Below are positions 1-54,054 of a stretch of DNA of 64,000 bases, piece after piece. This stretch comes from Tetrahymena thermophila SB210 (taxonomy: Eukaryota; Ciliophora; Oligohymenophorea; Hymenostomatida; Tetrahymenidae), in NCBI RefSeq assembly GCF_000189635.1, contig NW_002476542.1, positions 363,335-427,334 of the forward strand. Direction: 5' to 3'. The translations under genes were made by a program, and so were the position numbers. Within the stretch, counting starts at the first letter, position 1. Each line of letters begins with the position of its first letter. The notes under the pieces are model-generated. The model had not been told where the DNA came from. It did no database searches and was given only the letters and a program-made list of their open reading frames with translations.

Positions 1-430
1 ATAATAACTTTTATTATAAAGAAATTTAATTAAGCTGCTTATATTTAATTAGTCTTCTAGCATAAACTGTTTTATTAATCTATCCTTCATGAGAATAAAT
101 AAAAGGATATTCTTTTTGATACTATTATTTTTTATGAGGCCATAAATCGTAACCTATAAAACCATCTTATTATTATCTCTTTTCTTAAGATTTAGTGTAA
201 ATTAAAATTTTTGAAAATCTACAGATAAATTTCCATTAAGTTATGGGCTGGTTTAATTTACTAAATTTAGAGAAGCCCTACTAGCTACATAGCTAGCTAA
301 CATCTGAATTATTTTTAAAAATTAAAAAAAAACATGAAAACAATATAATTTTTATTTAAAATGACTTCTAGATCTAAAACATTCTTTTTCATATACTAAA
401 TAACAGTTAATATAAACTTCTACTATTAAT
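1..430 (-). pseudogene. Fragment of type 2 two-TM membrane protein (ectodomain part)
   Basis: Read on the minus strand, this stretch follows the ectodomain of the type 2 genes at 19998-22332 and 8672-10999. It keeps the segment before and after the Gly-Cys-Leu-Asp block and the Asn-Phe-Thr-Leu block. It contains stops in the homologous frame and ends without a membrane segment. It runs off the left edge. A very similar fragment lies at 13430-13690 in the same position relative to the next type 1 gene, so the fragment was copied together with its neighbour. It is a decayed piece, not a gene. Confidence 0.6.
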
Positions 431-560
431 CGAATCTCATGTTTAACTAAAAATAAATTTTTGAGCTTAAAATTGATAAAAGTAAAAAAAATTAATTGAA
501 TAAAGAAAATGAACATAAATTATAAAGTACAAACAAAACTAATATTTATGATAATTTTCA

Positions 561-2902
561 TCAACATTCCATTTGATTCCTAATGATTGAGGATAATATT
601 CTAGAATCAACATCGTTTAACTCAGTATCTTTCGTGCATTTATCTAAGAACTTTTAAATATATTTTATTTTGAGTTCTTGAGATAGCGTTATGGCAAATT
701 ATTCTTCAAAATAATTTCTTCTCCTTATTTCCTCTAAATTTATAATAAGAGTGTAATTTAATAAAAATCATTAGCATTTTGAAATTATTACATGTTGAGG
801 AGGCATTAAGGTTTTTCTTACTGATCTCTTTGCTTAAAAAGTAAGGTGAACAACCTACAAGTGAAATAGCTGCTAGCTAATCTTTGCTGAGCAAGACCAT
901 GACTGCCTTTTTAAGGAATATAATATCTTGATACAGCTATAAAATATCCAAGCTCTTTTCAACTTAGGACTCTATTAATTACTTCACAGATATATCAAAT
1001 TCTAGCTCCTTTTTTTCTTCTTTTTTTTTCCATAACCTAATTAATTTTAATGAGTTATTTATTGTTTTAATAATTGTGAATTTGTTTATTAATTTAATTA
1101 AGAATTTATAAGAAATCTAAATTATCTGTATTTATTTACTTTGCTCCAAATATAATTTTCTGTATATTTTTAGAAACATTTGAATTCATCATAACTTCTA
1201 ACTTCTTAGTAAAATATTAGCTAATTTCCTTTTTATTCATTTTTTCCATCACTTCTTTTTTAAATTACAAAACTTTTTCATTATCAGGAAATTAACTTTC
1301 TACAATAGATGGTAGTGGGTTTTATGATTTATATTTTGTTTAACCAATGCCCAAAGTTATTTTTCTTTATAATCTGATTGATTTTCTTGGATTGTTTAGC
1401 TTTGCAACTTAAACTGTGCTTTCAGCTATGTTGCTTGAAATGTATTTAGGAGAATCTAAAGCTAATGGTGATAAACATTTTGGACTTACTAATCTGTCAT
1501 TTTCAATAAAGTTGGATTATCCCATATTCTCTTTTACTAAGTAGTTAATATTATCATCGCCATCTGTTTAATTAGTAGCAATCGACTTCATACCTCTACT
1601 AGAATCTTTATACTCCATTATTTCATCTTACCCTTTTTCATTTTTCAAGTACTTATTTAAAATTTACTAATTTTATGATTGGTTGTTTTATGTTGAATTT
1701 TATTTTGTCTTAAAAGTAGGAACTAATATAGATTGTACGTTATTTGATTCTTCATACTCTTCTCCAATTTCTCTTTTTAATTTCTTTTTCTCAAAGTATA
1801 TTCCATCCTTCTTCTAAAATATCTAATTAATTTGCATTATTTACTCATAAGTGTCCTAGTACATATTCTACAAAAATAGAAGGAAAAACTCTTGCTTTAT
1901 TATATTCTAAGCAATAGCTCTACCAAAGTATCCTAGAGTCATTAAGAGAGCAAGTATACTATTTACCAAAGCTAATATCTCAGGATAAGTTGGATATTAA
2001 ATTTAGATCTATGTGTAGACTTCATCTAAGTAAATTGAAAACTTACAATAAGGTCCAACTCCATGAGGATTTAGAGCTTGACTTCTTTGGAAACTTGAAT
2101 TAATTTAGTCATAGGATAATAAGGATGTAAAAGAGGTTTCTGATTAAATCAAAAAACCCTCCTTAACTGAAGTAGTTTGTGTTTGAGCTTTAAATTAAGT
2201 CCAAAGAGCTTAATCTGGGTAAGAATACATGAAATTATTTCTGTAATTTTTCTCTATCTATTTTGAGGTTGTGTTGTATTACTAAGATAATAATTTTATG
2301 CGTAAAGCTGCCTAGTCGCCATTGACCATATCATCAATATCTTTTTAGCTGGCACAGTTATCAGGAATTGTTGTTTTAGCATGATCAAGATCCAAGCAAC
2401 CATAAGCCAAGAGAAATATTTAACTTTAGATATTCTCATTAGTGCTGAATTCGAAAGTATAGTTGGATACTTAAGAATAGTCAATACAGTAATATCCATC
2501 AAGTTAAGGACTTGTGCAATTAACTACATCAATACGCTTCATCATACTAAATGATGGGCTTCGATAATTTAAGTAGGCTTAATAGACAATATATTTTTTA
2601 TTTTGCTATGCCTCCAGAATAGATACATCTTTGTTAGCTAAGTATTCAAACCTGAAGCCAACTATATCACTGCTTAAATCAAGCTGAATAAGATCATCAG
2701 TTACAAAGGTTTGAGATCTATATTTAGGGTCAATTCGATTAGTCGCGTATAAGAATGTTAAATAAACAAAGTAAGAAAATATAACAATGAAAATACTCAA
2801 TGTCAAAAAAAATCCTGCAAAAGTTCCTTTTTTCGTTTACTTGCTCTGGCCCAAGTTAAAAAAAAAGGAAGATGAAAACATATCAGCTTTAGTAACACTC
2901 AT
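561..2902 (-). CDS. Type 1 two-TM ciliate membrane protein, intact copy
   Basis: Three exons, complement of 561-733, 792-1036 and 1140-2902, give 726 residues ending at TGA, with introns of 58 and 103 nt and consistent phases. Residues 1-28 are a short cytosolic head (MSVTKADMFSS). Residues about 29-51 are a membrane segment. Residues about 52-300 are an ectodomain with paired Cys (VNCTSP, YYCIDYS, YGCLDLDH, DNCASQ). Residues about 303-325 are a second membrane segment. The rest is a cytosolic tail of about 400 residues, with a variable Asn/Gln/Lys-rich middle and conserved blocks near the end (LDILQLYQDIIFLKKAV, LSKDQLAAISLVGCSP, FEEQFAITLSQELK, RILSSIIRN). In-frame TAA and TAG codons are read as Gln. 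I do not recognise the family. The layout suggests a receptor-like or structural cell-surface protein, which is inference. A nearly identical copy lies at 13832-16164. Confidence 0.8.
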
Positions 2903-3013
2903 TTTTTTGTTTATTTAAATTATCTTTTTTATGAATTTGTTTTTATAAAATTAAATATAAAAAAATTACTTTGATTTTCAATTTTTAAAGATCAATAACA
3001 ATTGCAAATTAAC

Positions 3014-3038
3014 AGCATTTGATTGGCTAGATTTTATT
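3014..3038 (-). promoter_or_regulatory. Conserved CCAAT-like element upstream of type 1 genes
   Basis: On the coding strand the element reads TAGCCAATCAAATGC, about 112 bases upstream of the start at 2902. Related copies sit at similar distances upstream of the other type 1 genes, near 16270 and 34245. Remnants lie near 7475, 12390 and 25570. The flanking DNA is otherwise plain A/T, so this island of conserved GC content is notable. It could bind a CCAAT-type factor. That role is inferred, because copies also share the element through common descent. Confidence 0.45.
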
Positions 3039-3739
3039 TTATAAAAATTTAATTGATTCTAGTTTTTTAAAAATATGTGATAAAAAAATTGACTCTTTAT
3101 ATTTTTTACTATCTAAATTAATAAATGAAAAAATTAGAAAATATTAATTAATTTTCAAAAGAAAAATATTTTTTATTTTCATGTTTTTACAATTATCAAT
3201 AAGGAAATTACAAATTCAAAATGAATTAATCTAACTATTGAATAAAAATTAAATCAATTTATTTTACCTTATATTATATACTTTAAATAGATTGTGCTAT
3301 AAATTTTTAAATTTAATTAATAAAAAAGCACCTTAATTGTTCTTAATAAATCTATTCACTTATTAAATTGATTCTAAAGAGAAAAGCTGAATTTTCTCCT
3401 CCGAATTAAAAAAATTAACATAAATGTAATGTGAATTCAAGAATATCTACAGTACTTTTTGATAAGTATTATTTATTATACAGACTTAGGCATTTGAATA
3501 TCAAAATTAATAAAATTAAATTAAAAATAATTATTTTAATTGAAATACATTGACAAATAATAAAATCATCTTAAAAAAATACTCACAGTAATCAAACAAA
3601 CAAACAAACAAACGAGAGTTATTCTAAGAAAATAAATAATTAATTATCTTTTAATAAAAGAAATAAATTTTTTTATGTTAATTAGATCATATAAATGCTA
3701 ATTAATCAGTTTATTTAATTATTAAAAACAGACGATTGA

Positions 3740-5450
3740 AATTTTACTATCAACTTTACTCAAGTCTCTACTACTTTAACAATTTTAGCAGAATTTTTTG
3801 ATTTTATTCTTCAAAAGATCTTATTATAAATATATGACAAACTATTCTTCAAATTAGTTTTTATCTCTCATTTGCTCTTTTTTTATCCATACTATTATTG
3901 TTTACTATTTTAATTATGGATAGTTAATACTTGAACATGTAAGGTCTTTGGTTTTCTAATTGATTTCTTTGCTTAAAAAGTATGGAGAACAACCAATTAG
4001 TTGCAGTGTCGCTAATTTTTAATTGCTCAATAGGACAATTACTGCTTTTTCTAAAACAGATAATATCTCAAAACAAATAAAATATGTCTAAGCTTTTCTC
4101 AACTTACTATTCAATCTAATTCTTTGAAGTTTCATCTAATTAATTGCTGATATCTTTACTCATATTTTTCTTCCTTAATCTATGACGATAAATAAAATAA
4201 ATGATAGATCAAATTTATTAAATATTTAAATATTAAAATTCCTATTCATAAACCACATACATTTTTCTGAAAATGTTATTTTATATGATTTTACTCCATT
4301 TTTATTTTTAAATTCCTTCTAAAATTTGTAAATTATAAATTGATTTGTTTGATGTCTACTTTTCAATTATCTCTTTTTTTAATATCGAATCATCTAATCT
4401 AGAATTTATTTGATCAGAATTCAAATTTTAGCATTTAAATGTAATTCTTTTTCGAATGTTCGAATTTATTTACTTTTTTACGATTTATTTTCAATGTTTT
4501 ATTTTTAGTTATTATATATAGTAATAAGCAAATTAGAATTAGCTTTCATCTTATTAATATTGCTAATCACTTTCTTTTTTTTGAGTTAGTTTAATCTAAA
4601 AAAAGCTTTAGCTATTAAAAATAGGAGAGAAATTATTTATGAAGAAATTATTTTTAGCTATAAAAGTAGGAATGTTTGTTTATATTTTGCATATTCTACT
4701 CAGCTTCGAATAAATCATTAACATTCATTTTAAAGGACCTCTTTTCAAAGTAAATATACTGGTTTTTTTAAAGTAAATTATTAAACTGCATAATTTATTC
4801 GTAGGTATTTTAATATATATTCTGAGAAAAAAAGAAATACTTTTTATTTTGTTAGCGAGTTCCTAGTAGAAGTTGTATAAATTTAATCATACTGAAAATG
4901 GGATTTAAGATTTGATTGAATAAAAAAGTCTTCTTAAACTGTTATAATTTGCTTTTGTAATTTATATTAAACATAAATCGATTCTGTGTGAGACATACTA
5001 TTAATTATATCTATATCTAGATTATTTTTATTTTGAAGTAGTGCTAAACTGAACACTAAATAACTTTGTACATACATAAACTCTATGATGATTACTATTT
5101 CATTAATTTAATCCTAGAGATGTTTTCTTTTTAATTAGATCAATATCTAAACAGCAATAAGTCACAACATATAAAGCAGTCTTATAGTTATATTTTGTGT
5201 TGAAATTAAGCTTAAAATTTGAAACGTTTGAAAGGTATACACATGAATAACCTTCAAATTATGGATTAGGGAAATTTACTATATCAATAAGAATCGTGCT
5301 ACCAAATGTGCTACTTTAGTAATTAAAAAACTTTGAAAATGTACTTTTTATTTTTTTAGGCTTGCCAATCTAAGATATTCTTATTGATGTCGTATTCAAG
5401 TCTAAAACATACTAAATTGCTGATAAAGTTTACTTCAACTAGATATGAAA
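3740..5450 (-). pseudogene. Type 2 two-TM membrane protein, N-terminally truncated pseudogene
   Basis: The stretch matches the type 2 genes from the C-terminal exon, through the cytosolic tail and second membrane segment, to the ectodomain near 5200-5440. The homologous frame is broken repeatedly. The N-terminal head and first membrane segment are missing: similarity ends about 100 bases before a run of 14 G. It lies upstream of the intact type 1 gene at 561-2902, the same pairing as 13832-16164 with 16981-17950. Confidence 0.7.
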
Positions 5451-6529
5451 ATACTATTAAACAATGATTAATTAAAAATCATTTAATTTTAGCATACAAC
5501 TTAAGCAAACATTTTGTGGATTTTAAATATGAAAAACAGAAATTATAAATAAGACTAATAATTTTTAGGGGGGGGGGGGGGAAGGGCCTCTATTTGTGTT
5601 TTATTTAAAAGGATTAACGAATATATAGAAATCGTAATTATGATTATTGAATTCTGGAAATCATATCCCTCCCTCTGTCAGTGAATGAATGAGTACCTTT
5701 ATTTTTATATCACAAGTCCTGTCCTGTGAACATTTTCCTTATAGATGATAATAAGTAAAAAATTAATAATTTCACATTGCAACAACCACTATTTTTATTT
5801 TGACGATTAACTATTATGAAAAGGCTTTTCAAAAAATTTTAAAAACATAATCTCTAAATAAATATTGGCTGATTTACTAACTTACTAGCTTTAAGAATTA
5901 ATTTCATTTATTCAAATAATATAGGATTAATTATCAAATTTTGCTTTTATTAAGAATTTTACAATTTACATTTATTTAAAATGGCTAAAATAAAACTTAT
6001 ATTTGTATTTAAAAATATTAAAAAAGTAGAAATAGAAAGTTTATTGAGAAAATTTTATTTTTTAATTTTAATAAAATAATTTTATTTAATATAAAATAGA
6101 TTTTTACTTTATTTTGTAACAAAATTTTTTATTTTATAAACAGAAATAGCAGAATGAAAAATTGATTATGGAAAGGCTATTACGCATCTGAATTTTGGGA
6201 TTATTGTATTTTAAAATTAGACCAGCTTTCACATGAATCAGAGTTTTTATGAACAAAAAAAGCATGGTTGGATAATTATGAAATTATCTTTTTTGCATTA
6301 TGAAATTAAAAAAACAGATACTGATTTAAAAATTTATAATTTTTTTTGAAAATAATCATTAAATAATATAAATTAAAAAAGAATGTACTTTAATCTTATT
6401 GATCAATTTAATAATCTAATTAAAAATAAATTTCTGGCTTTTAATTTTAGAAAAATTTTTTAAATAGACAATTAGATTTCATTAAGAAAACAAACATAAA
6501 TTTGAAATTAATTTTCAATAATTAGATTC
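5451..6529. other. Gene-free stretch with a G14 run and a GC-richer patch
   Basis: No coding frame is supported. The stretch holds a homopolymer of 14 G at about 5568-5581. Around 5660-5740 there is a patch richer in C and G than its surroundings. From about 5740 on it is ordinary A/T-rich DNA. Confidence 0.6.
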
Positions 6530-7460
6530 CTTTTGATTGAGTACAATACTGGTTCTTTTGTTGAAATAACTTAATTCAATTTTTTAAGTGTATTATCTAA
6601 AAATTTTTAGATATATTTTGTTTTGAATTTTTGTGATATTACAAATTATTCTTCAAATTAATTTATTCTTTTTACTCCCTCTATAGTTATAATTAGAATA
6701 CGATTTGATTATATTATATTTATTTATTACAAACATATGTGTAAGACTTTTCAGAGTTTTTCTTGTTGATTTTTCTATTAATTGAGGTACAACCTAAGAG
6801 TAAATAGTAACTAGCTAGTCTTTTTTGAGTTAGATCGTCTCTGAATTTTTCAGGAATAGGATATTATAAAGGATCTTAATAGTATTTAAGCTCTTTTCTA
6901 CCTAGTACTCAATTAGTTCTTTCACAATATATATTACATTTTTTTTGTTTTTATCTATTTTTATTCAATAAACAAATTATTTTTCTGATTGCGAATTTGC
7001 ATATTAAAGTGATTAAGAGTTACTTAGAAATATATAAAATAGGTTTTTTTGTTTATTTTTGGCAATTTTGGAAATATGTATGACTTTTAACTTGCTTAGT
7101 AAATATTAAGGAATTACATTTAAATCCAATTTTCGAGTACTTAATTACTTTAAAATGTGTAAACCTTCTCTTTAAAAGGAAATAACTCTCTCTTTCTTAT
7201 TAACTGTTTATTAAATTTTTTTTAACCAATACTTGATGCATATTTTTTTGTAATCTAACTAATTTTCTTGGGCTTAGCTTTGAAACTAAGAAAATATTTC
7301 TGTGATATTATTGAAAATTATTTAGGTATATCTAAATTTAATTCAAATGCCTGATTTGTACTTATGTATTTATCATTTATAAGAAAGTTATTTATTCGTT
7401 ATTTTATCCTTTCTAAATAATCATTATCATCTCCATCTGCCTAGTTAAAGCCAATCATGC
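6530..7460 (-). pseudogene. Type 1 two-TM membrane protein, 3' half only
   Basis: The minus strand matches the last two exons and part of the cytosolic tail of the type 1 gene at 561-2902. It is decayed, with frame breaks. At about 7450-7465 the similarity to coding sequence stops and jumps directly to the promoter-like element that normally lies upstream of type 1 start codons (ATTTGATTGGTTGGATTTTA). A single internal deletion has therefore removed the head, both membrane segments and the ectodomain. It is not expected to make a protein. Confidence 0.65.
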
Positions 7461-8671: not shown

Positions 8672-10999
8672 TCAGTTGATTTTATTTCTAATTACTGATG
8701 ATAGAATTCTATAGTCTATTTCACTTAAATCATTGCTGTTTTAACACTTTTCTAGGAATTTAGTGATGTACTTCTTCTAGAGATCTTATGACAAAGATAT
8801 AGTAAACTATTCCTCAAAATAGTTTCTTTTTCTCATTTGGGCTTTTTTATCAAAATATTTTTAGAGGTTTAATATTGAGATTATAAATAATTAATCAATT
8901 AATACATGACTGAGAAAGGTGTTTTGTTTTCTAATTGATTTCTTTGTTTAAAAAGTATGGAGAACAACCAATAAGTTTTATTGTCGCTAATTGATCTTTA
9001 CTCAATATGACCATTACTGCTTTCTTCAAAAAGATAATATCTTGATACAATTGCAATATGTCTAAGCTTTTTTCAACCTAGGATTCAATCAATTTCTTCG
9101 ATGTTTCATCTAACTGCTGACCATTCTATTCCTTCTTTTTCTTGCAAAATCTTTATGATGATAATAAGATGGGTTTATGAGAAATTAAGTTTGTTGAAAA
9201 TTAAAAGTGAAAAAGTGAAAAGCATACCTTTTTCCAAAAATTATATCTTGAATGTTTTTGCACACTTTTTAGTTTTAAATTACCTCTAATTTTTTTGTGT
9301 AATATGAATTAATCTCTTTTTTATTTAAATTTTCAATCATCTCTTATTTTAGTTATGAACTGTCAGATTAACTATTTTTTTTAACTTAGTCAGTTTTTAA
9401 ATTTTAACATTTTTACTATTTTCTTTATCCAATAGTCAACCTTATTTTCTTTTCGTTTTGACCGCTTTTACTTAAATTGTTTATTAACTATTAATATCCT
9501 AGTTAGTAAGAACTTTCATCTATAGAGTCAAAAAAATTTTATTTAGGAGATGCTTATAAAGTGGGTGAGTATGGGCTTTAAAGAGCATCTATCGAATTAA
9601 ATTTCTGAATATCAATCATTTTTTTATCAAAAAAGGAGCTTTTTTCATTTTAATTCATAATTGTATTCATCTATTCTATTTTTTCTTATTCTGTTTATAA
9701 ATTTTGTTATTCAGATTCTCTTTTTTGGTTAATTTAAGTTTAAAAAACATTTTCTTTAGTTATTTTATATGAAAATTTTTTAGCAAGAGAATTATTTTTA
9801 GCTCTAAAGTAAGGAACGGTTATTTTAGGTGAATACTAATAAACTTAAAATTCTTCATTAACACTCTTTTTCAAAGACATCTTTTGAAAATAAATTGCAT
9901 CGTTTTTTTAGAATAAATTATTAATTTGCATAATTTATTCATAGGTGTCTTGATACATATTCTACAGGAAAAGTAAGAAAAATTCTTATTTTATGAGTTT
10001 TTGAGCTAAGTATCTACCTACGAATCCTAATGTCATCAAAAAAGCTAGCGCACTGTTTACCAAAGCCATAATTTCTGGATAAGTTGGATATTGAACAGTG
10101 ATTTGATAAAAAATTTCATCCATAGATATAACAAACTCGCAATATGGGAGTATTATACCTCCTTATATTGTAGAGGAATTCCTAAGACTGGTTGAATAAA
10201 TTTATTCATATTGAAAAGGAGATTCATAAGTGCTTGTTGATTGAATTAAAAAACCTTACTAAACTGTTGTAATTTGTTTTTGCAATTTATATTAAACATA
10301 AATAGCTTAATCTGCTGAGGTGTACATATAGTTATTTCTATAGCTTGATTATTTTTGTTTTGAAGTTGTGTTAAACTGAGCACTAAGTAATTTTGTACGC
10401 ACGGTAGCTTTTTCACCATTAAAAATGCTATCAATTTAATCTTAGCTAGCACAATTAGATTCAGTTGTCTATTAGATTCCATTAATATCTAAGCAACCCT
10501 AAGTTAAAACATAAAGAGCAGTTTTATAGTTTGATTTTGTGTTAAGATTTAGCGTAAAATTGGAAACCTTTTAAAAATCTATGCATAAATAGCCTTCAAG
10601 TTATGGATTAGTGCAATTTACTATATCAATAGGAGTCATGCTTGCAAATGTGCTATTTTAGTAATTAAAAAAAGCTTTAAAAACCACATACTTTTAGTTT
10701 TATTAGGCTTCTAAGTCTAAAATATTCTTATTAACGTCGTATTCAAATCGAAAACCGACTAAATCGCTGGTTAGATCTACTTCTACTAGATCATCAGTTA
10801 TAAAGTTTTAAGATTTATATTTTGGATCAATTTTATTGTTAAAATATTAAATCGTAAGATATGCAAAGTAGGTCATAATAGAGGCTATAACAGCAATAGT
10901 CAACAGCGCTCCAATAAGTGTACCTTTTTTAATTTGCTGAGAATTCCCGAAATTAAAAAAAAACTAGGAGGAAAACATATCAATTTTTGTAATACTCAT
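8672..10999 (-). CDS. Type 2 two-TM ciliate membrane protein, intact copy
   Basis: Three exons, complement of 8672-8841, 8906-9150 and 9228-10999, give 728 residues ending at TGA. Introns are 64 and 77 nt and sit at the same positions and phases as in the type 1 genes, and the middle exon is 245 nt in both classes. Layout: a short cytosolic head (MSITKIDMFSSQ), a first membrane segment at about residues 29-51, an ectodomain with Cys pairs (VNCTNPQLEGYLCIDF, QGCLDINGI, SNCASQD), a second membrane segment at about 305-327, then a cytosolic tail. The tail ends with the same blocks as type 1 (LDILQLYQDIIFLKKAV, LSKDQLATIKLIGCSP, FEEQFTISLSQDLQ, RILSSVIRN). Type 2 differs mainly in the variable tail middle and ectodomain loops. 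The function is not recognised. Confidence 0.8.
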
Positions 11000-11779: not shown

Positions 11780-12285
11780 TGACAAAATTCTATGATCAAC
11801 ATCACTTATGTCAGTATTTTTCTAAGCTTTCTGCCATCTTGCTTGATAAGTATTTAGGTGAATCTAAAACTGATGGAGATACTGATTTTGGATGAATAAA
11901 TATTTGATTTTCAATTAAGTTAGATTATCCTATCTAGCAATCACTATTATTGCCATCTGCCTCACTATCTTTAACCATTTTTATACCTAGCTATGCCTCC
12001 AAAAGGGCTATGTCTTTGTTAAATTAGCATTCAAACCTAAAGCCAACCATATCACTGCTTAAATCTAACTGAATAAGATCATCAGTTACAATGCTTTGAG
12101 ATTTATATTTAGGTTCAATCCCGTTTATTGCGTATTGTATTGTTAAGTAAATAAAGTAAGAAAATATGATAAGGAAAATACTTAATGTCAAAATAAATCC
12201 TGCAAAAATTCCATTTTTAATTTTACTTACTTTCACCCAATTCAAAATAAAATTACGATGAAAACATGTCAATTTTAGTATCACT
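11780..12285 (-). pseudogene. Type 1 two-TM membrane protein with a large internal deletion
   Basis: On the minus strand the first part (12285 to about 12000) matches the head, first membrane segment and start of the ectodomain (DDLIQLDLSSDMVGFRFE). The sequence then jumps to a short stretch of the variable cytosolic tail (about 11990-11850), and then to the extreme C-terminus (about 11825-11780). The ectodomain, the second membrane segment and most of the tail are gone. The base triplet at the usual start position is ATA rather than ATG. It is a relic copy. Confidence 0.7.
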
Positions 12286-13429: not shown

Positions 13430-13690
13430 CATTAAGATTTAGTGTAAAAGTTAAATTTTTGAATATTCTACACATAAATTTTCCATTAAGTTATGGGTTG
13501 GTTTAATTTACTAAATTTAGAGTTGCTATGCAAGCTACTAGTTAACTAGCTAGCTAGATAGATAGATAGCATGTGAGCTATTTTTAAAAACTAAAAAAAG
13601 CTATTAAAACAATATAATTTTATTTTAAAAGACTTCCAAATCAAAAACACTCTTTTTGATATACTAAATAGTAGTTTAAACCAATTTTAA
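13430..13690 (-). pseudogene. Fragment of type 2 membrane protein ectodomain
   Basis: The minus strand matches the ectodomain block around the Asn-Phe-Thr-Leu and Tyr-Leu-Cys motifs of type 2 genes, and closely matches 180-430 of this window. It carries a short TAGA/TAGC repeat expansion near 13545-13570. It marks the left part of the segment duplicated between 180-3660 and 13430-16940. Confidence 0.55.
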
Positions 13691-13831
13691 TTTTTTTTTA
13701 CTTTGGTCAATGTAAGCTCAAAAATGTATTTTTAATTAAAACATAAGAATTGATTAATTGAATAAAGAAAATGAACATAAATTATAAAGTACAAAAAAAA
13801 AATAGCAATATATTTATGATAATTTTAATTT

Positions 13832-16164: not shown

Positions 16165-16259
16165 TTTTTTGTTAGTTTAAATTTTGTTTTTATGAATTAG
16201 TTTTTTATAAAATATATATATATAAATTACTTAGATTTTCAATTATTTAACCATCAATT

Positions 16260-16300
16260 ACAATAGCAAATTAGCATTTGATTGGGTAGATTTCTGTTTT
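16260..16300 (-). promoter_or_regulatory. CCAAT-like element upstream of the second intact type 1 gene
   Basis: The block ATTTGATTGGGTAGATTT (plus-strand reading) is the counterpart of the element at 3014-3038, about 110 bases upstream of the start at 16164. A regulatory role is inferred from position and conservation only. Confidence 0.4.
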
Positions 16301-17954: not shown

Positions 17955-17974
17955 AAATTTTACCTTTCGACATT

Positions 17975-19997: not shown

Positions 19998-22332
19998 TCA
20001 GTCAACTTTATTTCTAATAACAGATGATAGAATTCTACAATCGATTTCGCTTAAATCACTATTGTTTTAACATTTTTCTAGGAATTTAGCGATGTACTTC
20101 TTCTAGAGATCTTATGACAAAGATATCGCAAACTGTTCCTCAAAATAGTTTCTTTTTCTCATTTGGTCTTTTTTTATCCAAATATTTTTGTTTTTTTAAT
20201 ATAGAAATTATAAATAATTAATCAATTAATACATGACTGAGAAAGGTCTTTCGTTTACGAATTGATTTCTTTACTTAAAAAGTATGGTGAACAACCAACT
20301 AGTTGCAGTGTCGCTAATTGATCTTTGCTCAATATGACCATCACGGCTTTCTTCAAAAAGATAATATCTCGATACAATTACAAAATATCTAAGCTTTATT
20401 CAACCTAGGATTTAATCAAGTTCTTAGAAGATTCATCTAACTGCTGGCGATTCTTTTCCTCCTTTTTCTTCCACAATCTATGATGATAATAAAATGGGTA
20501 GATGATTAATTAAATTTGTTTAGATACATAGAATATTAAAAACTTATAAGTAAAAAACATACCTTTTTCCAAAAATTATATCTTGAATGTTTTTGCTCAC
20601 TTTTTAGTTTTAAATTATCTCTAATTTTTTTATGAAATATGAATTTATTTCTTTGTAATCTAACTTTTCAATTACCTCTTATTTTAATTATGAGCTGTCA
20701 GATTAACTAATTTTTTGGACTTAGTCAGTTTTCAAATTTTAACATTTTTACTATTTTCTCTATCCAATAGTTAACCTTATTTTCTTTTCATTTTCACCGC
20801 TTTTACTTAAATTGTTCATTAGCTGTTAATATGCGAGTTAGTATGAGCTTTCATCTATAGAGTCAAAATTTTATTATGGCGAAGCTAATAAAGCAGGTGA
20901 ACACGGGCTTTAAGGAGTGTCGATCTAATTAGATTTCTGCATTTCAACCATTTATTTATCTAAAAAGGTGCTTTTTTCATTTTAATTCGTAATTGTATTC
21001 ATTTATTCTATTTTATCTTATTCAGTTTATAAATTATGTTACTAAAGTTCTTTTTTTGGGCTAATTTAACTTTAAAAAACATTTTCTTTAGAAATAATAG
21101 ATGAGAATTTTTTAGTCAAAGTATTATTTTTAGCTCTCTCTGAAGAAAGGAACGTTTATCTTCGGCGAATACTACTAAATTTAAAATTCTTCATTAACAC
21201 TCTTTTTAAAAGATCTCTTTTAAAAGTAAATTGCATCGTTTTTTTAGAATAAATTATTAATTTGCATAATTTATTCATAGGTGTCTTGATACATATTCTA
21301 CAGGAAAAGTAAGAAAAATTCCTATTTTATGAATTTTTGAGCTAAATATCTACCTAAGTATCCTAATGTCATCAAAAGAGCTAGCGCACTATTTACCAAA
21401 GCCATGATTTCTGGATAAGTTGGATATTGAACAGTGATTTGATAAAAAATTTCATCCATTGAGATAACGAACTTGCAATATGGTAGTATTCCTCCTTATT
21501 TTGTAGATGAATTTCTAAGATTAGTTGCACAAATTTATTCATATTGAAAAGGAGATTCATAAGTGCTTGTTGATTGAATTAAAAAGCCTTACTAAACTGT
21601 TGTAATTTGTTTTTGCAATTTATATTAAACATAAATTTCTTACAGCGCTGCGGTGTACATGTAGTTATTTCTATAACTTGTTTATTTTTATCTTGAAGTT
21701 GTGTTAAACTGAGCACTAAGTAGTTTTGTACGCACACTAGCTCTTTGGCCATTAACAATTTTATCAATCTAATCTTAGGTAGCGCAATTAGGATCAGATG
21801 TCTTTTTGATACCATCAATATCTAAGCAACCATAAGTTAAAACATAAATAGCCGTTTTATAGTTTTATTTCGTATTCACATTTAGCGTAAAATTGGAAAC
21901 CTTTGTAAAGTCTATGCATAAATAACCTTCAAGTTATGGATTAGTGCAATTTACTACGTCTATAGGAGTCATGCTAGCAAATGTGTTATTTTAGTAATTA
22001 AAAAAAGCTTTGAAAACCACATACTTTTTGTTTTGTTATGCTTCTAAGTCTAAAATATTCATATTAACATCATATTCAAATCTAAAACCGACTAAATCCC
22101 TTGTTAAGTCTACTTCTACTAGATCTTCAGTTATAAAGTTTTACGATTTATATTTTGGATCAATCTTGTTATTAAAATATTAGACTGTAAGATAAACAAA
22201 GTAAGTAGAGACAGAAGATATAACAGCAATACTCAACAGAGTTCCAATAAGCGTTCCTTTTTTAATTTGCTGAGAATTTCCCAAATTAAAAAAAAAAGAG
22301 GAAGAAAACATATCAATTTTTGTAAAACTCAT
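19998..22332 (-). pseudogene. Type 2 two-TM membrane protein, full length but frameshifted
   Basis: The exon layout is kept (complement of 19998-20167, 20233-20477 and 20563-22332, introns 65 and 85 nt). The first exon reads cleanly from the start through the head, first membrane segment, ectodomain and second membrane segment to the proximal tail. Near 21133-21141 there is an extra AGAG (seen as CTCTCTCT on the plus strand) relative to the copies at 8672-10999 and 28689-31008. This shifts the frame and leads to TGA near 21020. The sequence beyond is still well conserved in the original frame, so the break is recent. The shortened product would keep both membrane segments but lose the conserved tail blocks. 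A sequencing or assembly error is possible. Confidence 0.65.
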
Positions 22333-23199
22333 CTCTTTTTGTTTGTTTTTTTTTATTTTTTCTAATTAAAAGTTTTTTTTTTATTTATTTTTATAGAAAT
22401 TTGTGCTACTAAATTAGGAGTTTTCAACAATTAAATCAATCATGCTAAATTCATCTAAGTAAAATATATCATTATTTTTTAAATTATCTAATAAGCTACA
22501 AATTTTAATAAGTTTCTCAATATTAGTAAAAGTAAAAATAATATTTTATCTATTTATTTCTAAACAATCTTTTTAAAACAATAAGCAAATATAATTTCTC
22601 ATTAAGACAAAGCACTAATTTATAATAACGTAAAATTGGAGAACATTTAATAAACATAATCTGTGAATATAAAAGATATACATATATACGTAGGTAAGTA
22701 CATACTTACATACTACATGAATTAATTAAATTTATTTAAATAATACTAAATTTATTAATAATCAAATTTATGTTATTTTTGCGTTAAAGATTGAGATAGT
22801 TTTATTTTGAATTTACTGTCAGCCTTGTTATTTAAATAAACATAATTAGATTTTATTTCTAAAATTTCAGTGATTGTTTGCTTACATATTGATATGAGAA
22901 AATAACTTGGTGGGGTTTTTGGGAAATATAACTTTTGAAATTAAAAAAACAGGTGTTGGTGTAAAGTTAATATCCCCATTTAATCAATTCTTCATTAATT
23001 AATTAATATATATATAAAAATGATCTACTATTTATTTTATTAATCAATAATCATATTGAATTTAAAAAAATTCTTTTTGACTTTTACTTTAAGAAATCAT
23101 TTAAAAAACAAATTGATAGATCGATCGAATTAAGAAAACAAACATAAATTTTAAAATACAAAATAAATAAATAAATAATATTTGTTTGCTTATCTTTGA
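22333..23199. other. Upstream region of the type 2 copy, no gene seen
   Basis: The proximal 60 bases match the upstream sequence of the other type 2 genes. A short ATAC/TATA-rich stretch lies near 22675-22710. The region around 22780-23160 resembles 11340-11720. No coding frame is supported. Confidence 0.5.
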
Positions 23200-25460
23200 G
23201 GATTTTAGTTTTCAATTAATTTAATTAATTTGATTCCTAATCTATAATCAGCATCACCTAATCAAAATTCTTTTGTCTACTTTTCTATGTATTTTGATTT
23301 AAGTTCTTGGATAATAATATGGTGAATTATTTTTCAAAGCAACTTTTTCTAATTGCTTCTTCTAAATTTATAGTTAGAACATAATTTACTATAAATTATT
23401 AGCATCCTGAAAAAAATTAAAGAATTAAGGTTTTTATTACTAATTTCCTTTCCTAAAAATAAGGTGAACTACCTACTAGCTAACTAATCTTAGCTAAGGA
23501 AAACCATCTCTTCTTTTTCAGAAATATAAAATCTTGGTACAGCTGTAAGATAGCTATGCTCTTTTCAACATGGGAATCAATTAACTGTTTCACGTATATA
23601 TCAAACTCTTGTTCATTTTTATTTTCCTTCCTTTTCCAGAATCTAATAAATTTATGTAAATCAATTATTATTTTTATTATCTTGAATTTGTTTATTAATT
23701 TAATTCAGAATTAATAAGAAATATTGACCATTAAATTTTCTTTGTTTCTATATATTTATTTTTAGAAACTTTGAAATTACTCATTCATGATATCTAAATT
23801 TTTGTTTAATTTTTCTTCACTTTTTTTAAAATTTGCAAAACCTTTTCTTTATCAGGTAATTAACTTTCGATAATTGATGATAGTTGGCTAATTTTTCAAT
23901 TTAAATTTAGTTTAATCAAAATCAAATGTTATTCTTCTTTATAATCTGATTGATTTTCAGTGGTTTTGCTTTTGAATTAAGTTAACTTTTCTGCAACGTT
24001 GATTGAAAAGTATTTGGTGAGTTTTAAATTGATGGAAATGTTGATTTTTGACTTGTGAATCTTTCATTTTCGATTAAATTTGATTATTCAATTTTCCCTG
24101 TTGCTAAATAATAATTATCATCAACACATATCTAAGTAGTACCAATAATCTTAATACATTCAGCTGGTTCATTATATTTTATATTACATATTTTAACTTT
24201 TCAAATGATTTTTAAAATTTTACAAATTTTATCAATGATTGATTGTAAGATATAACATTTGATTTCTCTTTAAAAAAAGGGGAATTGTTTTTAATTACGC
24301 ATTATTTGATTCTACATTATCTTCTCAAATTTTATTTCTCAAAGTATATTCCTTCTTTCTTCTGAAATATCTAATTGATTTGTATTATTTACTCTTAAGT
24401 ATCTTAGTACATAATTTACAATAATAAAAGGAAAAATTCTTACTTTATTATTTTATAGGCAATAAATACTTCTACCAAAGTATCCTAATGTGATTATATG
24501 AGCAAGCATGCTTTTTACCAAGGCTAATATTTATTTCAAGATAAGTAGGATATTAAATTTAGATTTAATAGTATACTTCATTTTAGTCAATTGAGAATTT
24601 ATAATAGGGTCCAACACCATTAGGATTTAGAGCCTCACTTCATTAGAAACTTGAATTAATTCATTTATTCATAGGATAATAGAGAAGAAAAAGATTATTC
24701 AGAATAAATTAAACAACCATTTTTCACATAAATGGTTTATTTTTGAATTAAGTTCTATGAGCTTATTCTGAGAAAGGATGCTTAAAAATTATTTCTATAA
24801 GTTTGCTCTATATTTTATGAAGTTTTTGTATTACTAAAGTAATAAATTTATGAGTAAAGCAGCCTAGTCACCATTGTCCATATCATCAATATCTTTTTAG
24901 CTGGCGCAGTTATAAGAGTTGTTGTTTTAGAATGATCAAGATCCAAACAACGATTAGCCAAGAGAAAGATTTAACTTTAGACATTATCTTTAGTACTATT
25001 TTCAATTGTATAGTTTGATACTTAAGGATAATCAATACAACATTATCCTTCCAAAAGAAGACTTATGTAATTAACTATATCAATTCTTTTAATTATAGAA
25101 AATGTTGGGCTTTTATAATTTAGATAGTTAACCTAATAAAAAATAATTTTTTATTATTTTCTAATCCATCTAGGTTAAATATATCTTTGATAGCTAAGTA
25201 TTAAAACCTGAAACCAACAATATTACTTCTCAAATATAGCTGATTAAGAAGATCAGTGAGTCACAAAGGTTTGTGATCTATATTTAGGGTACATTCGATT
25301 AGCTGTACATTACAATTTTAAGTAAACAAGTAAGAAAATATGACAAGGAAAATGCTCAATATCAAAATAAATCCTGTAAATAATCCTCTTTAATTTATTT
25401 ATTCTCACCCAAGTCAAAAACAAAGGATAATCAGAATATGTTCATTTTAGTAACTCTCAT
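23200..25460 (-). pseudogene. Type 1 two-TM membrane protein, decayed full-length copy
   Basis: Similarity to the type 1 genes runs across the whole length, including the head (start triplet ATG at 25460), first membrane segment, ectodomain, second membrane segment (near 24490-24550) and C-terminal blocks. A TGA falls ten codons after the start, and many small indels follow. The C-terminal RILSS motif is lost. It is much more diverged than the copies at 561-2902 and 13832-16164, and is about as decayed as the one at 31810-34150. Confidence 0.7.
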
Positions 25461-27326
25461 TTATTTTTAAAAGAAATTAAATTTGGATTTACTAATTTTA
25501 ATTTTTTTGATGATTATAATTTTTGAATTATTTTTCTTTATTTTAAAAAGCGAATTGAAATAATGAATTGATTCTATTTGATTGTTGAATCTTTGCGAAT
25601 TTTACCATCTTTTAGTAAGAATTTTGTGATCATTCATTCCTGCTTATTTTTTTTAATTTTTAAAATATTATGATAAATTTTGGTTATTACTAAGTTTGAT
25701 GTGATTAATTGCAGCAATAATCATAAAATTATTTGAGGAATAAGGGAGTAAAGATTCCTAAATTGTTAAAAATTTCATAATTTAGTTAGTTAAGAAAATA
25801 AAATCATATAGTTTATTTAATATTTAAACCTTTTTAATATTTATAATAACTAATTTTCAAAAATGAATTTTCAATTTAAAATATTGATTTTATTTAGATG
25901 AAATTTTTTTAAGACGCTACTTAAAAAAAGTAAGATTAGTTAGTATTCTTATCTATTTTGAAATTTAAGATTCCGTAAGCAGAGTTTTCGAAAATAATTT
26001 TATAAAAGAAGTTAATTTTATCTATTAAATAAGTTATATTTTAAATGAATTTAAAATCTTTTTTAAATCATTAAAACATAATCTCATATTTTTATTCTAT
26101 TAAAAAATAAATTTCATTTTATTATTAATTATTATATTTATCTTTATTATCTATTTTTTTAAAAAAGAACAATAATTTGCTTATAAAAATAAATAAATAA
26201 GTATTTATTGTCATCGATTGCTTTACTTCTTTTTAATTTAAAAAAAATTTTAATTTATTTATTTTTTTATTTAATTTTATTTGATTATTTTAAAAATTAT
26301 TTCTATAGAAATTTTATCTCAAACATTTTTGGAGAATTAATATGTAGTTTTTTTAACATTATAATTTTAAAAAATAATTTTTGGATAATATGTTATCTGT
26401 TTATGTACTTTTTCTACTAAATATCATTAAAAATAATTATCTATAATATAAAAAAATGAAGCCTAACATGCCAATTTTTTGTCTCCCAGGCATTTTACTT
26501 GAATAGCTACATTTCACACATTTTTAATTTAATTAAAAAAAAAATTAAATAATTTTTAAATGACCTACATTAAAAAACATATTATTAAAATTAGCTTAAT
26601 CTTGCATTAGAAGTATTAGACAATGATTCCTCTATTTATAAAATAATATAAAAAAATTAATTAGAAAAAGTACTTGTCTGTTTTGGTTCATATAACTTTT
26701 TTTTTGTTCGTTTTTTTTTCTATTCTAATTAAACCCTTAACAAAAAATTGATAATCCAGACTAACTAAGTATTAACAAGTTTGAGTAATTATTTTAAAAT
26801 TGTCTATCAATAGTTTCATAATCCTTAGTATCTATATATATATGTTAATCTATTACAAAAATAAAAGAAAACAATAGGACAACTCATTAATTTATCCTTT
26901 TATTTTTTGTTATTAAATTTTTATGCTATTTCCTAAACCCCCCTTAATACAAAATCTTTATAAGTTTCATTAAATCTCCTTTTCAGATATTTGGCTTTCC
27001 ATTCTCATCATGGTAATTAATTAATTCTGAAATGATCAACATACTCAGAATAATACACCTACCTGTTCTTTCATTTCAATTTTTTCATTTCTGATATCAC
27101 TTTGATGTGAAAAAATAAAAATATTAAAATCAGTTTTTATCATCTGTTACTTCTTAATGGAATAAATTGTCATTTTAACATTCATTTTTATTCAGATAAA
27201 TATTCCCTTCTATTTCCCGCTTTAGCTTTCAGATATTTTAGGTTCAAACTATTACATATTTTTCAAATCTATCATATTATAATACATTTAGTTAAAATCA
27301 TATAGTCACATTTATTCTCAAATCTG

Positions 27327-27879: not shown

Positions 27880-27880
<1 letters not shown>

Positions 27881-27930: not shown

Positions 27931-27931
<1 letters not shown>

Positions 27932-28688
27932 TTAATTATTGTTTTATGAAAATTTATTTATTTTATTACTAATTTTAATTTTAATAATGAATGAATGAAT
28001 TCATTTTTTATCAATTTTTCTTTTATTTAAATTTATTTTGAAATTAATTAATTTAAGTTTTAAAATCATTATTCTTCTATTTAATATTGTTTGTTTGGCT
28101 TTTTTCCTTCTAATTATTTACTAGAAAAAGGTGATAAGTTAGTTCCTTGAAAAAAGTTTTTACTTATTAAATCATAATATTTTTTAAAAGTGATGCGTTT
28201 AGAAATAAAAGCTGGTAGAGGTCCATTTATTTTAACCCTACCTCATCCTTAAATTTCCCATTTCTCCAAAATGATTGTAAATAAAAATTAACATTAATAA
28301 GATAAATATTATTAGCAAGTACGTAAAAAGAAAACTTTTTGTTTCTTTTTCAAGCAATCTATTTAATTATAAATAAATAAATTTGCCTATTTAATAATAA
28401 ATGTAAGAATATTAAAATTACATACAAAAACAACAATTTAATCAGTTCAATATCAACATTAATTGACCAACTCCTATATAAAAATGAAACTTGTTTTGCT
28501 CATTAAAAAAAATAATTTTCATAGTGGATAATTAAAAATCAAAATATAACACAAATAAACAAAAATAAAACCATCAAAATAAATTAATGAAATCATTAAT
28601 AAATTGATTAACTAATAATTTTTTTAAATAAACTTTGTAAAATTAAAATTTTTATTAAAATTTGATCTTTCAAACACTAATTAATTAA

Positions 28689-31008
28689 TCAGTCGACTTT
28701 ATTTCTAATAACAGATGATAGAATTCTACAGTCGATTTCGCTTAAGTCACTGCTATTTTAACATTTTTCTAGGAATTTAGCGATGTACTTTTTCTATAGG
28801 TCTTATGACAATGATATAGCAAACTATTCCTCAAAATAGTTTCTTTTTCTCATTTGATCTTTTTTACCAAATATTTTTGTTTGTTTAATATCAAAATTAT
28901 AGATAAATAATTAAGTAATTAATACATATCTAAGAATGGTCTTTTGTTTCCTAATTAATTTCTTTACTTAAAAAGTATGGAGAACAATCAACAAGTTATA
29001 ATGTAGCTAATTGATCTTTGCTCAATATAACCATTACTGCTTTCTTCAAAAAGATAATATCTCTATACAATTACAATATATCTAAGCTTTTCTCAACCTA
29101 GGATTCAATTAAGTTCTTTGAAGATTCATTTAATTACTGATAACCCTATTCCTACTTCTTCTTCCACAATCTATTACGATAAATAAAATAGATGGATGTT
29201 TATTTATTTAAATTTCTTTAAAATACAAAAATGTATAATAAGTAAAAAACATACCTTTTTCCAAAAATTTTATTTTGAATGTTTTTGCCCACTTTTTAAT
29301 TTTAAATTAACTCTAATTTTTTTGTGAAATATGAATTGATTTGTTTGTTATCTAACTTTTCCATCACCTCCTTTTTTAGTTACAGACCATCAGATTAACT
29401 AATTTTTTGAATTTAATCAGATTTCAAGTTTAAACAATTTTATGATTTTCTTTATCCAATAGTCAATCTTATTTTCTTTTCTTTTTCACCCCTTTTACTT
29501 TATTTATTTATTATATGTTAATATCCCTTTTAGAATGATATTTCCTCAAAAGAATCAAACTTTTATTTTGGTAAAGCTGTTTTTAAGAATGGACTTTAAG
29601 AAACGTCTACCTAATTATATTTCTGCATAAACCATTTATTTATCAAAAAAGTCACTTTTTTCATGTTAATTAGTAATTGTAATCGTCTATTCTATTTTTT
29701 CTTATTCTGTTTATAAATTTTGTTATTCAGTTTCTCTTTTTGGACTAATTTAACTTTAACAATCATTTTCGTTAGCAATAATAGTAGAAAATTTTTAAGA
29801 CATAGAATTATTATTAGCTCTGAAGTAAGGAATAGCTATTTTCTACTAATTATCCTAAACTTAAAATTCTTCATTAATATTTTTTTTATGAAATCTCTTT
29901 TCAAAGTATATTGCATCATTTTTTTAAAATAAATTATTGATTTGCATAATTTATTCATATGTATCTTGATACATATTCTAAAGGAAAAGTAAAAAAAATT
30001 CTTATTTTATGAATTTTTGAGCAATATATCTACCAATGTATCCTGATGTCATCAGAAGAGCAAGCGCACTATTTACCAAAGCCATTATTTCTGGAAAAGT
30101 AGGATATTGAACAGTGATTTGATAAACCATTTCATCCATAGAGATAACAAACTTACCATATGGGAGTATTCCTCCTTATATTGCAGACGAATTCCTAAGA
30201 CTAGTTGAATAAACTTATTCATATTGAAAAGGAGATTCATAAATACTTGTTGATTGTATTAAAAAACCTTCCTAACTTTCGTAATTTGCTTTTGCAATTT
30301 ATAGGAAACCTCAATAGCTTAATCTGCTGAGGTGTACATATAGTTATTTCTATAGCTTGATTATTTTTATTTTGAAGTTGTGTTAAATTAAGCACTAAGT
30401 AGTTTTGTACGTAAACTAGCCTTCTCACCATTAACAATATTATTAATTTCATCCTAATTAGCGCAGTTTGAAGGAGATGTCTTTTAGAAGCCATTAATAT
30501 CTAAGCAACCATAAGTTAAAACGTATAAAGCTGTCTTATAGTTATTTTTTGTGTTGATATTTAGCGTAAAATTGGAAACTTTTGAAAAATCTATGCATAA
30601 ATAACCTTCAAGTTATGGATTAGTGCAATTTACTATATCAATAGGAGTCATGCTAGCAAATGTGCTATTTTAGTAATTAAAAAAAGCTTTGAAAACCACA
30701 TACGTTTTGTTTTATTAGGCTTCTAAATCTAATACATTCTTATTGACATCGTATTCAAATCTAAATCCTACTAAATCGTTAGTTAAGTTTACTTCTACTA
30801 GATCTTCAGTTATGAAATTTTAGGATTTATATTTTGGATCAATCTAATTATCAAAATATTAAATCGTAAGATAAACAAAGTAAGTTAAGGCAGAAGCTAT
30901 AACAGCAATAGTCAGTAGTGCTCCAATAAATGTTCCTTTTTTATTTTACTAATTCCCCAAATTAAAAAAAAAATAGGAGGAAAACATATCATATTTTTTA
31001 ATACTCAT
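28689..31008 (-). pseudogene. Type 2 two-TM membrane protein, full length but frameshifted
   Basis: The exon pattern is that of the intact type 2 gene (complement of 28689-28858, 28926-29170 and 29255-31008, introns 67 and 84 nt). The frame is good from the start through the first membrane segment and most of the ectodomain. Aligned with 8672-10999, one base is missing near 30275-30285, within the block corresponding to QITTVQQGF. The shifted frame reaches TGA near 30053. A second net loss of five bases near 29550-29590 restores the original phase. Conservation of the original frame between the two breaks suggests recent inactivation, or sequence error at the first one. Confidence 0.6.
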
Positions 31009-31809
31009 CACTATTTATTTTGTTTTACTTTCTCAATTAAAAGTTTTTTAATAATTATTATTTTTTAGGTTTATATAAATTTGTGCTACTAAAGAGTTGT
31101 TTTTTATGATTAAAACAATATTTTAAATTAATCTAAATAAAATTTTTCATTATTTTTAAACTTGTGATTTTAAATTTAATATGTTTATGACAATAATTAA
31201 AACATTCACAACAAAAATATGTTTATCTTTTTGTTTCTAAACATATTTTTAATTTATTTTTAAATAAAAAAATATTCAATTTCAATCATTTATTATGTAA
31301 GTTCTAAATATGAAAAATAAAGATAACAAATAAAACCTCTTATTTATTTTACAGTACTGTTTTTTATTTGATAATACGCTTAATAACATAAAATTGCAAA
31401 GCATTTAGTTAAATTAATTTGTGAATAGAGAAGACTTCAAGAATTAATTCAGTTTATTAAAATGATACGTAATTAATTAATTAATAATCAATTTTTGTTT
31501 ATCATTGCATTAAAGATTTTGGTTGTCTTATTTTGAATTCTAGCTTTTATTTATTATTTCAATGAGCACAACTTTATTTTTATTTCTAAAATTTCAGTGA
31601 TAGAATAATTAATTTTATGGAAAAATAAATAACTATTTATTCTAATCAATCAATTATCACACATTAATTAAAAAACTTGATTTTTAGTTAAAGAAATGAT
31701 TTAAAATAAAACAAACTGACTGAATTAAGAAAACTAAATCAATTTTTAAATACAAAATAAATAATTTTTATTGATTTTTGAGGATTTTAGTTATCAATTA
31801 ATTAGATTC
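31009..31809. other. Upstream region of the type 2 copy, no gene seen
   Basis: The proximal part shares TTTCTCAATTAAAAGTTTTT with the other type 2 upstream regions. The remainder resembles 22560-23160 and 11340-11720 weakly. No coding frame is supported. Confidence 0.5.
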
Positions 31810-34150
31810 CTAATAACTGAATATATCCTATAATCTCCATCACTCAATTAAGTAATTTTTATGCTCTAATATAAGAATTTTTAAAAGGATTTTTTTTGCC
31901 TTAAGTTCTTACTATAATGATATGGTGACTTATTTTTCAAAGTAATTTCCTCATTTTACTTTTTCTAAATTTATTAAAGTGGAGGCATTAAAGATTTTAT
32001 AGCAAATCTCCTTGCATAAAAAGTAAGTGATCAACCTACAAGGTAAATAGAGGCTAACTAATTTTTGCTGATCAAGATCATAACCACCTTTTTCAGGAAT
32101 ATGATGTCTTGATACAGCTGTAAAATATCTAAAAGTTCTATTCAATTCACTGTTTCATAGATATATCAAACTCTTCTTGTACATTTTATTTTCTTTCTTT
32201 TTATATACCTAATTAATTAATTCTAATGATTTATTACTTTTATTATTGTTAAACTATTAATTAATTTAATTCAAAATTTATTTATGAGATAGATGTCATT
32301 TAAATTTTGCTTTGTTCCTAATATGATTTTCTGTGTATTTATTTTTGTAAACTTTAGAATTAATAATGACTTCCATCTTCTTTTTAAAATATTGGTTAAT
32401 TTCTTATTTGTTTAATTTAGCATTAGATTATTCAATCTTCCCTTTTGCTAAGTATTAATTATAATCACTCTCTGTCAGTCTAATTAGTATTAAATCTTAC
32501 AGCTGGCTCATTAAATTCGTTTACTCTATCTTATCTATATTCTCTTCTCATATAATTTTTTAAATTTTACAAATTTTATGAGTGATTATTGCTTGATATT
32601 TATTTTTATTTCACCATAAAAGAAGGAATTGTTATTAATTTTACATTATTCGATTCTTCATGAATTTCTCCAATTTCTTTTTTTATTGCTATTTGCAGCA
32701 AATTTTTTCTGTAGCTGAGAAGCTACATGTTAAAATAAATTAAAAAATAAATAAATTAAATTATTTTTAAATTTTGTATTATTTTATATTATTTTATATT
32801 TATTTATTTGTTTACTTTTAAATTTAAAAAAATTAATTTAAATTTAAATTTAAAATTTATTTAAATTATTATTAATCAAATACAAATTACATATAAATAT
32901 ATAAAATACTATTATATAAATTTATTTAATATTATATTAATTTCTATTAGAAAGATAAATAGTTATAGGTGTAACCCATCACTATTTATCTCTCTATTAC
33001 AAAAAAAAAAATCTGCAATTAGCAATAATTTATTTATCTCAACGTGTATTCTATCCTTATTCTAAAATATCTAATTAATTTCCATTATTTTCTCATAAGT
33101 GTCCTTCCTATTATTTATTCTACAAAAAATAGAAGGAAAAACTCTTGCTATATTATTCTCTAAGTAATACCTCTACCAAAGTATCCTAAAGAATCCTAAT
33201 ATCATTATAAGAGCAAGCGTTCTGTTTACGTAGGCTAATATTTTATGGATAAATTAGATATTGAATTTAAATTAAATATTTTATTAATCAGAACTTTTCA
33301 ATAGGGTACAACCAACATCATGAGGAATTAGAGCCTCACTTCATTATAACTTAAATTAATTAATTTAGTCATCGGATAATAGAGAAGAAAAATATTATTA
33401 AGATTAAACTAAAAGACCATTTTTCACTCAAGTAGTTTATGTTTGACCTACAAATTTATTCCAAAAAGCTTAATCAGGTGAGTATGAATACATGAAATTA
33501 TTTATGTAATTTTACTTTATCTTCTATGAAGTTAATTTGTATTACTAAGATAATAATATTAAGCGTAAAGTTACCTAATATCTTTTTAGCTAGCGCAGTT
33601 ATTAGGAATTTTTGATTTAGTTTGATTTAAATACAAACAACCATATGCCAAGAGAAATATTTAACTTTATACATTATCTTTAGGACTATGTTCAAAAGTA
33701 TAGTTGGATACTTAAGTATAATTAGTACAATAATATCAAACAATTAGAGGATTTGTACAATAAATTACATCAATTCTCGCTTCATAAAAGAAATGCTGGG
33801 CTCTCTTTTATAATTTGGATAAGCCTAATGCACTATATATTTTTTTATTTTCCTATGTCTACAGGATATATAAATCTTTGTTATCTCATCATTGAAACCG
33901 AAAGCTAACAATATTACTCTCAAATCTAGCTGAATAAGGCATTAGCAATAAAGTTTTATGATCTATATTTATGGTGATTCTATTTTTTTTATTTTAAAAT
34001 GTTAGGTAAACAAAGTAAGGATATATGACAAGGAAAATGCTCAATATAAATGATAAATCTTGCAAAAGTTCCTTTTTTAATTTACTTATTCTCACCTAAT
34101 TTAAAAAAAAGGATGATGAAAACATGTCAATTTATTTTAATAACTATCAT
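31810..34150 (-). pseudogene. Type 1 two-TM membrane protein, decayed and interrupted by an insertion
   Basis: Type 1 similarity extends from the head (ATG at 34150) to the C-terminal blocks near 31830-32150. A TGA falls seven codons after the start, and indels are frequent. A segment of about 346 bases at 32683-33028 with inverted-repeat ends interrupts the cytosolic-tail coding region. The tail region between about 32410 and 32460 is also shortened. It is clearly non-functional and is the oldest-looking type 1 copy together with 23200-25460. Confidence 0.7.
32683..33028. mobile_element. MITE-like insertion with terminal inverted repeats
   Basis: The left end reads TTATTGCTATTTGCAG. The right end, on the opposite strand, reads TTATTGCTAATTGCAG, a 16-base terminal inverted repeat with one mismatch, followed by T-rich similarity on both sides. 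The interior has no coding capacity and is almost pure A/T. Near the right end a 10-base perfect hairpin stem (GATAAATAGT at 32954, ACTATTTATC at 32981) encloses a short GC-richer loop. The element is absent at the matching place in the copies at 561-2902 and 13832-16164. A target duplication cannot be told apart from the A/T-rich flanks. Confidence 0.65.

Positions 34151-53970: not shown

Positions 53971-54054
<84 letters not shown>

Follow-up and report, generated by a model that had tools for sequence, protein, structure and literature searches.

What do the membrane-protein genes arrayed along one strand of a Tetrahymena thermophila contig encode, and do the two classes into which they fall represent the two partners of a complex, or the products of diversification at the cell surface, as a preliminary description of this DNA had proposed? 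The window, by which we mean the whole 64 000-base stretch that was analysed, corresponds to bases 363335–427334 of a contig of 433523 bases, and the genome searched comprised 101 Mb in 445 contigs. Long frames in the window require TAA and TAG to be read as glutamine, with 47–54 such codons per frame in three frames. The telomerase RNA of this genome agrees in sequence with that of T. thermophila. An Rfam scan of the window at the gathering score gave no match.

A minus-strand array of two classes

Searches with one copy of each class (tblastn, ciliate code) resolved 13 separate members of the family, whole or fragmentary. Every one is on the minus strand, and together they run from ∼34140 down to 112, in agreement with the number, orientation and two classes given in the preliminary description. 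The three copies that it regarded as intact are confirmed as such by full spliced models, each of which has three exons and encodes 723–728 aa. The copies are listed below, where the class of the four smallest fragments (17.9, 13.6, 7.4 and 0.3 kb) comes from similarity scores alone.

32341–34140, minus strand: class 1 relic with an in-frame TGA (tblastn, tree)
28690–31074, minus strand: class 2 copy, almost full length, reading frame broken near 30270 and 29629 (tblastn, tree, self blastn)
23791–25469, minus strand: class 1 relic with an in-frame TGA (tblastn, tree)
19999–22463, minus strand: class 2 copy, almost full length, frame break near 21138 (tblastn, tree, self blastn)
17157–17958, minus strand: class 2 fragment (similarity score alone)
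13832–16164, minus strand: class 1 gene, intact, 723 aa; exons 16164–14408, 14304–14060 and 14001–13832 (spliced model)
13431–13622, minus strand: class 2 fragment (similarity score alone)
11826–12312, minus strand: class 1 fragment, N-terminus and part of the tail (tblastn, tree)
8672–10999, minus strand: class 2 gene, intact, 728 aa; exons 10999–9228, 9150–8906 and 8841–8672 (spliced model)
7150–7446, minus strand: class 1 tail fragment (similarity score alone)
3625–5474, minus strand: class 2 relic; 5474–4137 by tblastn, 3′ part to ∼3625 by blastn; middle exon at 4179–3931
561–2902, minus strand: class 1 gene, intact, 726 aa; exons 2902–1140, 1036–792 and 733–561 (spliced model and family match)
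112–354, minus strand: class 2 fragment (similarity score alone)

The middle exon, previously described as an identical 245 nt, has this length in five of the six copies measured, whereas in the relic near 4 kb it is 249 nt. A further class 1 copy, with a broken tail and without a start ATG, lies directly left of the window, and the other stop-free fragments of the window look short and decayed.

A minus-strand frame at 36153–37196, adjoining the array, encodes a protein rich in cysteine that begins with what resembles a signal peptide and ends in a hydrophobic stretch, and its look suggests a GPI-anchored surface antigen; it has no Pfam match, and a genome search with it returned itself alone. 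On the plus strand, open frames of 963–968 residues stand in tandem at 50143–53040, 53965–56871 and 57926–60817. None of the three gave a usable Pfam match, and the one that was examined whole is rich in membrane segments in its first half and made of repeats in its second. The end of the window (∼63000–64000) and the sequence on to the contig end (L010 5700–6224), inspected by eye at the nucleotide level, are rich in cysteine codons and perhaps encode growth-factor-receptor-type repeats, as reported for young Tetrahymena genes.

Class alternation and block duplication

Listed by decreasing coordinate, the classes follow the order 1,2,1,2,2,1,2,1,2,1,2,1,2, such that 11 of the 12 neighbouring pairs are unlike in class, a degree of alternation that on shuffling is reached in only 13 of 1716 orderings. 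This order favours a view in which a class 1 protein and a class 2 protein are the two subunits of an obligate complex, on the model of Erv41 and Erv46. However, the copies are not independent, and comparison of the window with itself (self blastn) reveals two duplicated block pairs that carry both classes:

185–5295: block matching 13432–17953 in pieces, at 88%, 83% and 82% identity
19590–26343: block matching 28293–35051 in co-linear pieces, at 66–81% identity

These block pairs hold 10 of the 13 copies, those outside being the copies at 12, 11 and 7.4 kb, and the sole 2-2 neighbour pair sits where the two block families meet. Because the duplicated blocks carry both classes, the alternation is largely explained; the two classes do recur as neighbours, as had been noted, but mostly as a by-product of block duplication, and the self-comparison removes most of the argument from alternation to pairing. 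Growth of the array through duplication and decay, also put forward earlier, is upheld by the tblastn copies and the self-blastn blocks alike.

A tree was computed from 40 of 56 matched places (at least 300 columns, stop-free) together with one window frame. In it, members of the two classes make up a single clade (100/99), which divides into two sister clades confined to this array. In a tree that took in the relics, class 1 was joined by the copies at 34, 25 and 12 kb and class 2 by the copies at 31 and 5 kb, with long branches for the relics at 34, 25 and 5 kb and an odd composition in some relics. Among the seven other arrays sampled, six each form their own clade and C165 contains several lineages, while C60 and C308 have one divergent member each; deep splits within an array are therefore not unique to the window. 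The private nature of the class split, and the presence of one intact class 2 gene versus two intact class 1 genes, both speak against an obligate complex. With sister clades private to the array and an alternation that derives largely from block duplication, the genomics gives no support to the paired complex, which we consider improbable.

Architecture of the encoded proteins

Hydropathy analysis of the three intact models places hydrophobic helices near residues 25–55 and 308–328, in accord with the two-pass membrane proteins first described. An intact window protein thus consists of ∼24 residues, helix 1, a presumably lumenal or extracellular loop of ∼250 residues with four cysteines, helix 2, a variable cytosolic linker and a C-terminal domain, with ∼400 residues following the second helix. 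By inspection, basic residues lie just inside both helices, which suggests a topology with both protein ends in the cytosol. The ectodomain cysteines, at positions 129, 139, 169 and 183, are indeed conserved, being present in all 41 of the aligned rows that were retained. After the variable linker, exons 2 and 3 specify a C-terminal domain whose conservation extends across all eight other arrays sampled, C116 among them (of 25 loci searched, all matched exon 2 and 23 matched exon 3), in support of the conserved C-terminal cytosolic blocks of the preliminary description.

Comparison with known domains and folds gave little. The window copies have no significant Pfam match, and searches of Pfam with the C-terminal domain returned 14 families, each in a single member and none credible. 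Profile searches of solved structures gave two matches for the C-terminal domain, both at an E of 2.6 and neither credible, and a single match for the ectodomain at an E of 8.7, while a single-protein search of solved structures gave no match. Structure prediction for the window ectodomain, for which the input was six rows from the window (a single frame-broken copy supplied two of these, as separate pieces), returned a mean pLDDT of 32.9 and no usable fold.

Two helices that enclose a large ectodomain are also the layout of a two-helix channel subunit, as in P2X and DEG/ENaC. An ion channel subunit of this general kind would account for the helices and the cysteine-bearing ectodomain, but no channel family is found among the Pfam matches of 33 members at E ≤ 1, and the only PDB profile match is the one at an E of 8.7. 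We therefore regard a channel as very unlikely.

Selection on the ectodomain

Rates of substitution were estimated by the method of Nei and Gojobori. For the intact class 1 pair, residues 1–330, which span the ectodomain and both helices, have a dN/dS of 0.06, compared with 0.27 for the linker and 0.20 for exons 2–3. Comparisons that include a decaying copy give 0.21 for class 2 (near 10 kb versus 22 kb) and 0.20–0.24 for class 1 versus the broken left copy; comparisons between class 1 and class 2 are near or beyond saturation. In seven other arrays, the 32 within-array pairs with a dS of 0.05–1.0, which are not independent of one another, have a median dN/dS of 0.25 and a maximum of 0.59. For duplicating Tetrahymena gene sets, the parts of PMC6564038 considered here give youngest-group Ka/Ks medians of 0.25 and 0.30, close to the family value of 0.25, the two comparisons being built differently. 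As dN/dS is below 1 in every computable pair, and 0.06–0.24 in the window ectodomain, the diversifying coat protein of the preliminary description is not borne out: the ectodomain is under purifying selection, and nothing indicates diversifying selection.

These values bear on the possibility that the family forms a cell coat that diversifies for antigenic change. Tandem duplication and decay would suit such a coat, and Tetrahymena does vary GPI-anchored surface antigens, its Ser immobilization antigens lying, like the family, in tandem arrays mostly of one orientation (PMC4136848, in the portion consulted). However, Ser antigens have a GPI anchor and periodic cysteine blocks, whereas the family has two helices, only four common cysteines and a conserved cytosolic domain, and hydropathy analysis found no GPI-type hydrophobic C-terminal end in the three intact models. 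The dN/dS below 1 in all 32 pairs, low also in the window, argues in the same direction, although pair averages can mask a few sites. Antigenic coat proteins are thus disfavoured, and we consider them very improbable.

One of many arrays in the genome

The scale of the family is missed if the window alone is viewed, as this array is one of many in the genome. Motif searches, in which the best 150 of 266 and the best 150 of 279 candidates were scored, yielded a union of at least 204 places, and 34 hand-picked places from ectodomain matches contributed 26 new ones. The family thereby occupies at least 230 places on 62 contigs, a lower bound that counts places and not proven genes. Of the arrays of three or more, 24 of 25 are in a single orientation, C78 being the exception. 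A composite search with the C-terminal domain (best 150 of 333 candidates) revealed further clusters on C174 and C314, and C116:316409–364434 holds 15 or more family places in one array, the N-termini of which score highest in the family for ERGIC_N.

Among viral contigs there were 43 pattern matches, none related to the family, and PADLOC gave no match with two proteins. The sections of PMC6564038 considered here describe young tandem-duplicated Tetrahymena genes (LRR and others) and list seven domains, none of which is matched in the family (Pfam, E ≤ 1). In the literature searched, which was limited to open-licence papers, no description of the family was found. The window holds one decaying, locally split array of a large and little-explained family.

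ERGIC_N-like N-termini in some family members

The earlier statement that no function has been described still stands, with the addition of one lead: some members of the family begin with a sequence that resembles ERGIC_N. Of 33 members scanned, 15 match ERGIC_N at E ≤ 1, which makes it the commonest Pfam match (lowest E, 4.5e-4), although unrelated families reach a similar E in one or two members (P2_Phage_GpR, 6.2e-4, two members). A genome search with PF13850 returned 45 matches, of which five are at three Erv loci; of the 40 others, those assigned comprise 23 that sit ∼450 bases upstream of the family motif and one, on C314, that lies upstream of a C-terminal-domain match. The 27-bit cut-off for ERGIC_N was exceeded at four family places in the genome search and in three of five C116 proteins scanned (six loci were retrieved), with a best score of 32.8 bits (E 7.7e-8). 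The C116 proteins belong to the family, with 34–36% identity to a window protein over ∼400 residues. In the window copies themselves the match is below the cut-off, at 12.1 bits for class 2, and class 1 has no match. An isolated family N-terminus scores 35.5 bits, and as controls six block-shuffled versions of it and three reversed N-termini gave no ERGIC_N match in any of the nine cases.

The likeness covers ∼60 residues, mostly one helix, and stops after the first helix without reaching the lumenal part. When the family profile was aligned with two Tetrahymena Erv proteins, the N-terminus alone aligned, with probabilities of 29 and 42. The genome contains five matches to PF07970 (COPIIcoated_ERV), none of them in the family; they are confined to three Erv loci, namely C314, C399 and C81:703–707 kb. 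At C399 (from 2608 of the retrieved piece), a family member adjoins the Erv gene on the opposite strand. Taken at the level of sequence, shared ancestry of the N-terminus with Erv41/Erv46 is supported but not proven.

Erv41 and Erv46, the ER–Golgi retrograde cargo receptors, resemble the family in their two membrane helices and large central loop and, as regards one branch of it, in an N-terminus with first helix that looks to be of the ERGIC_N type. As described in the portion of PMC4729789 consulted, their homologues combine PF13850 with PF07970 and have two helices, short tails and GKxx/KKxx ends, and CxxC/CCxxC motifs occur in ERV-A and Erv46. In contrast, the family is without the COPIIcoated_ERV domain, and its cytosolic tail is long instead of short and contains a separate conserved domain. 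The window proteins have no KKxx/GKxx end (the last four residues of the three intact ones are QMEC, NKMV and NKIN), and their cysteines, 129, 139, 169 and 183, do not form CxxC/CCxxC motifs. The Erv proteins also occupy few loci, whereas the family has hundreds of places. Because the Erv lumenal domain, the short tail and the retrieval signal are absent, the family, by these sequence features, is not one of Erv41/Erv46 proteins proper.

Candidate functions and their implications

Our preferred reading, which we hold tentatively and at somewhat less than even confidence, is that the family comprises membrane receptors or adaptors of a secretory or surface pathway, their function being unproven. 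In such proteins, the four-cysteine domain would pick out its ligand or cargo on the side of the membrane away from the cytosol, and docking to a common cytosolic partner would fall to the conserved C-terminal domain. Multi-gene block duplication supplies new copies, most of which, in this array, decay. The trafficking flavour of this reading comes from the ERGIC_N match alone.

A possible though less likely alternative is that the proteins are sensory receptors of the plasma membrane or cilia for environmental ligands such as food bacteria or other cells, the likeness to ERGIC_N being ancestral or accidental and without a trafficking role. Large tandem arrays, a conserved cysteine-bearing ectodomain and a conserved cytosolic domain are all in keeping with this, and the ten-species Tetrahymena study, in the sections considered, ties many duplicating genes to environmental adjustment and the sensing of bacterial food (PMC6564038). 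However, the Pfam scans contain no receptor domain, and the ectodomain is constrained rather than diversifying.

A further reading is a large set of client-diversified cargo receptors. In ciliates, the membrane module of Erv41/Erv46 would have acquired two new partners, a lumenal domain with four cysteines and a coupling domain in the cytosol, and would then have been multiplied to hundreds of copies, each of which would serve its own share of a similarly large set of secreted or GPI-anchored surface proteins. We regard this as a long shot.

For the interpretation of gene arrays in general, the locus illustrates that alternating gene pairs can come largely from block duplication, which advises caution before such pairs are read as complexes. 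If the ERGIC_N link is true, a housekeeping trafficking module would have been turned into a large repertoire. A large family of this kind in a model organism, without a matched Pfam model of its own, constitutes an annotation gap in the membrane proteome of Tetrahymena.
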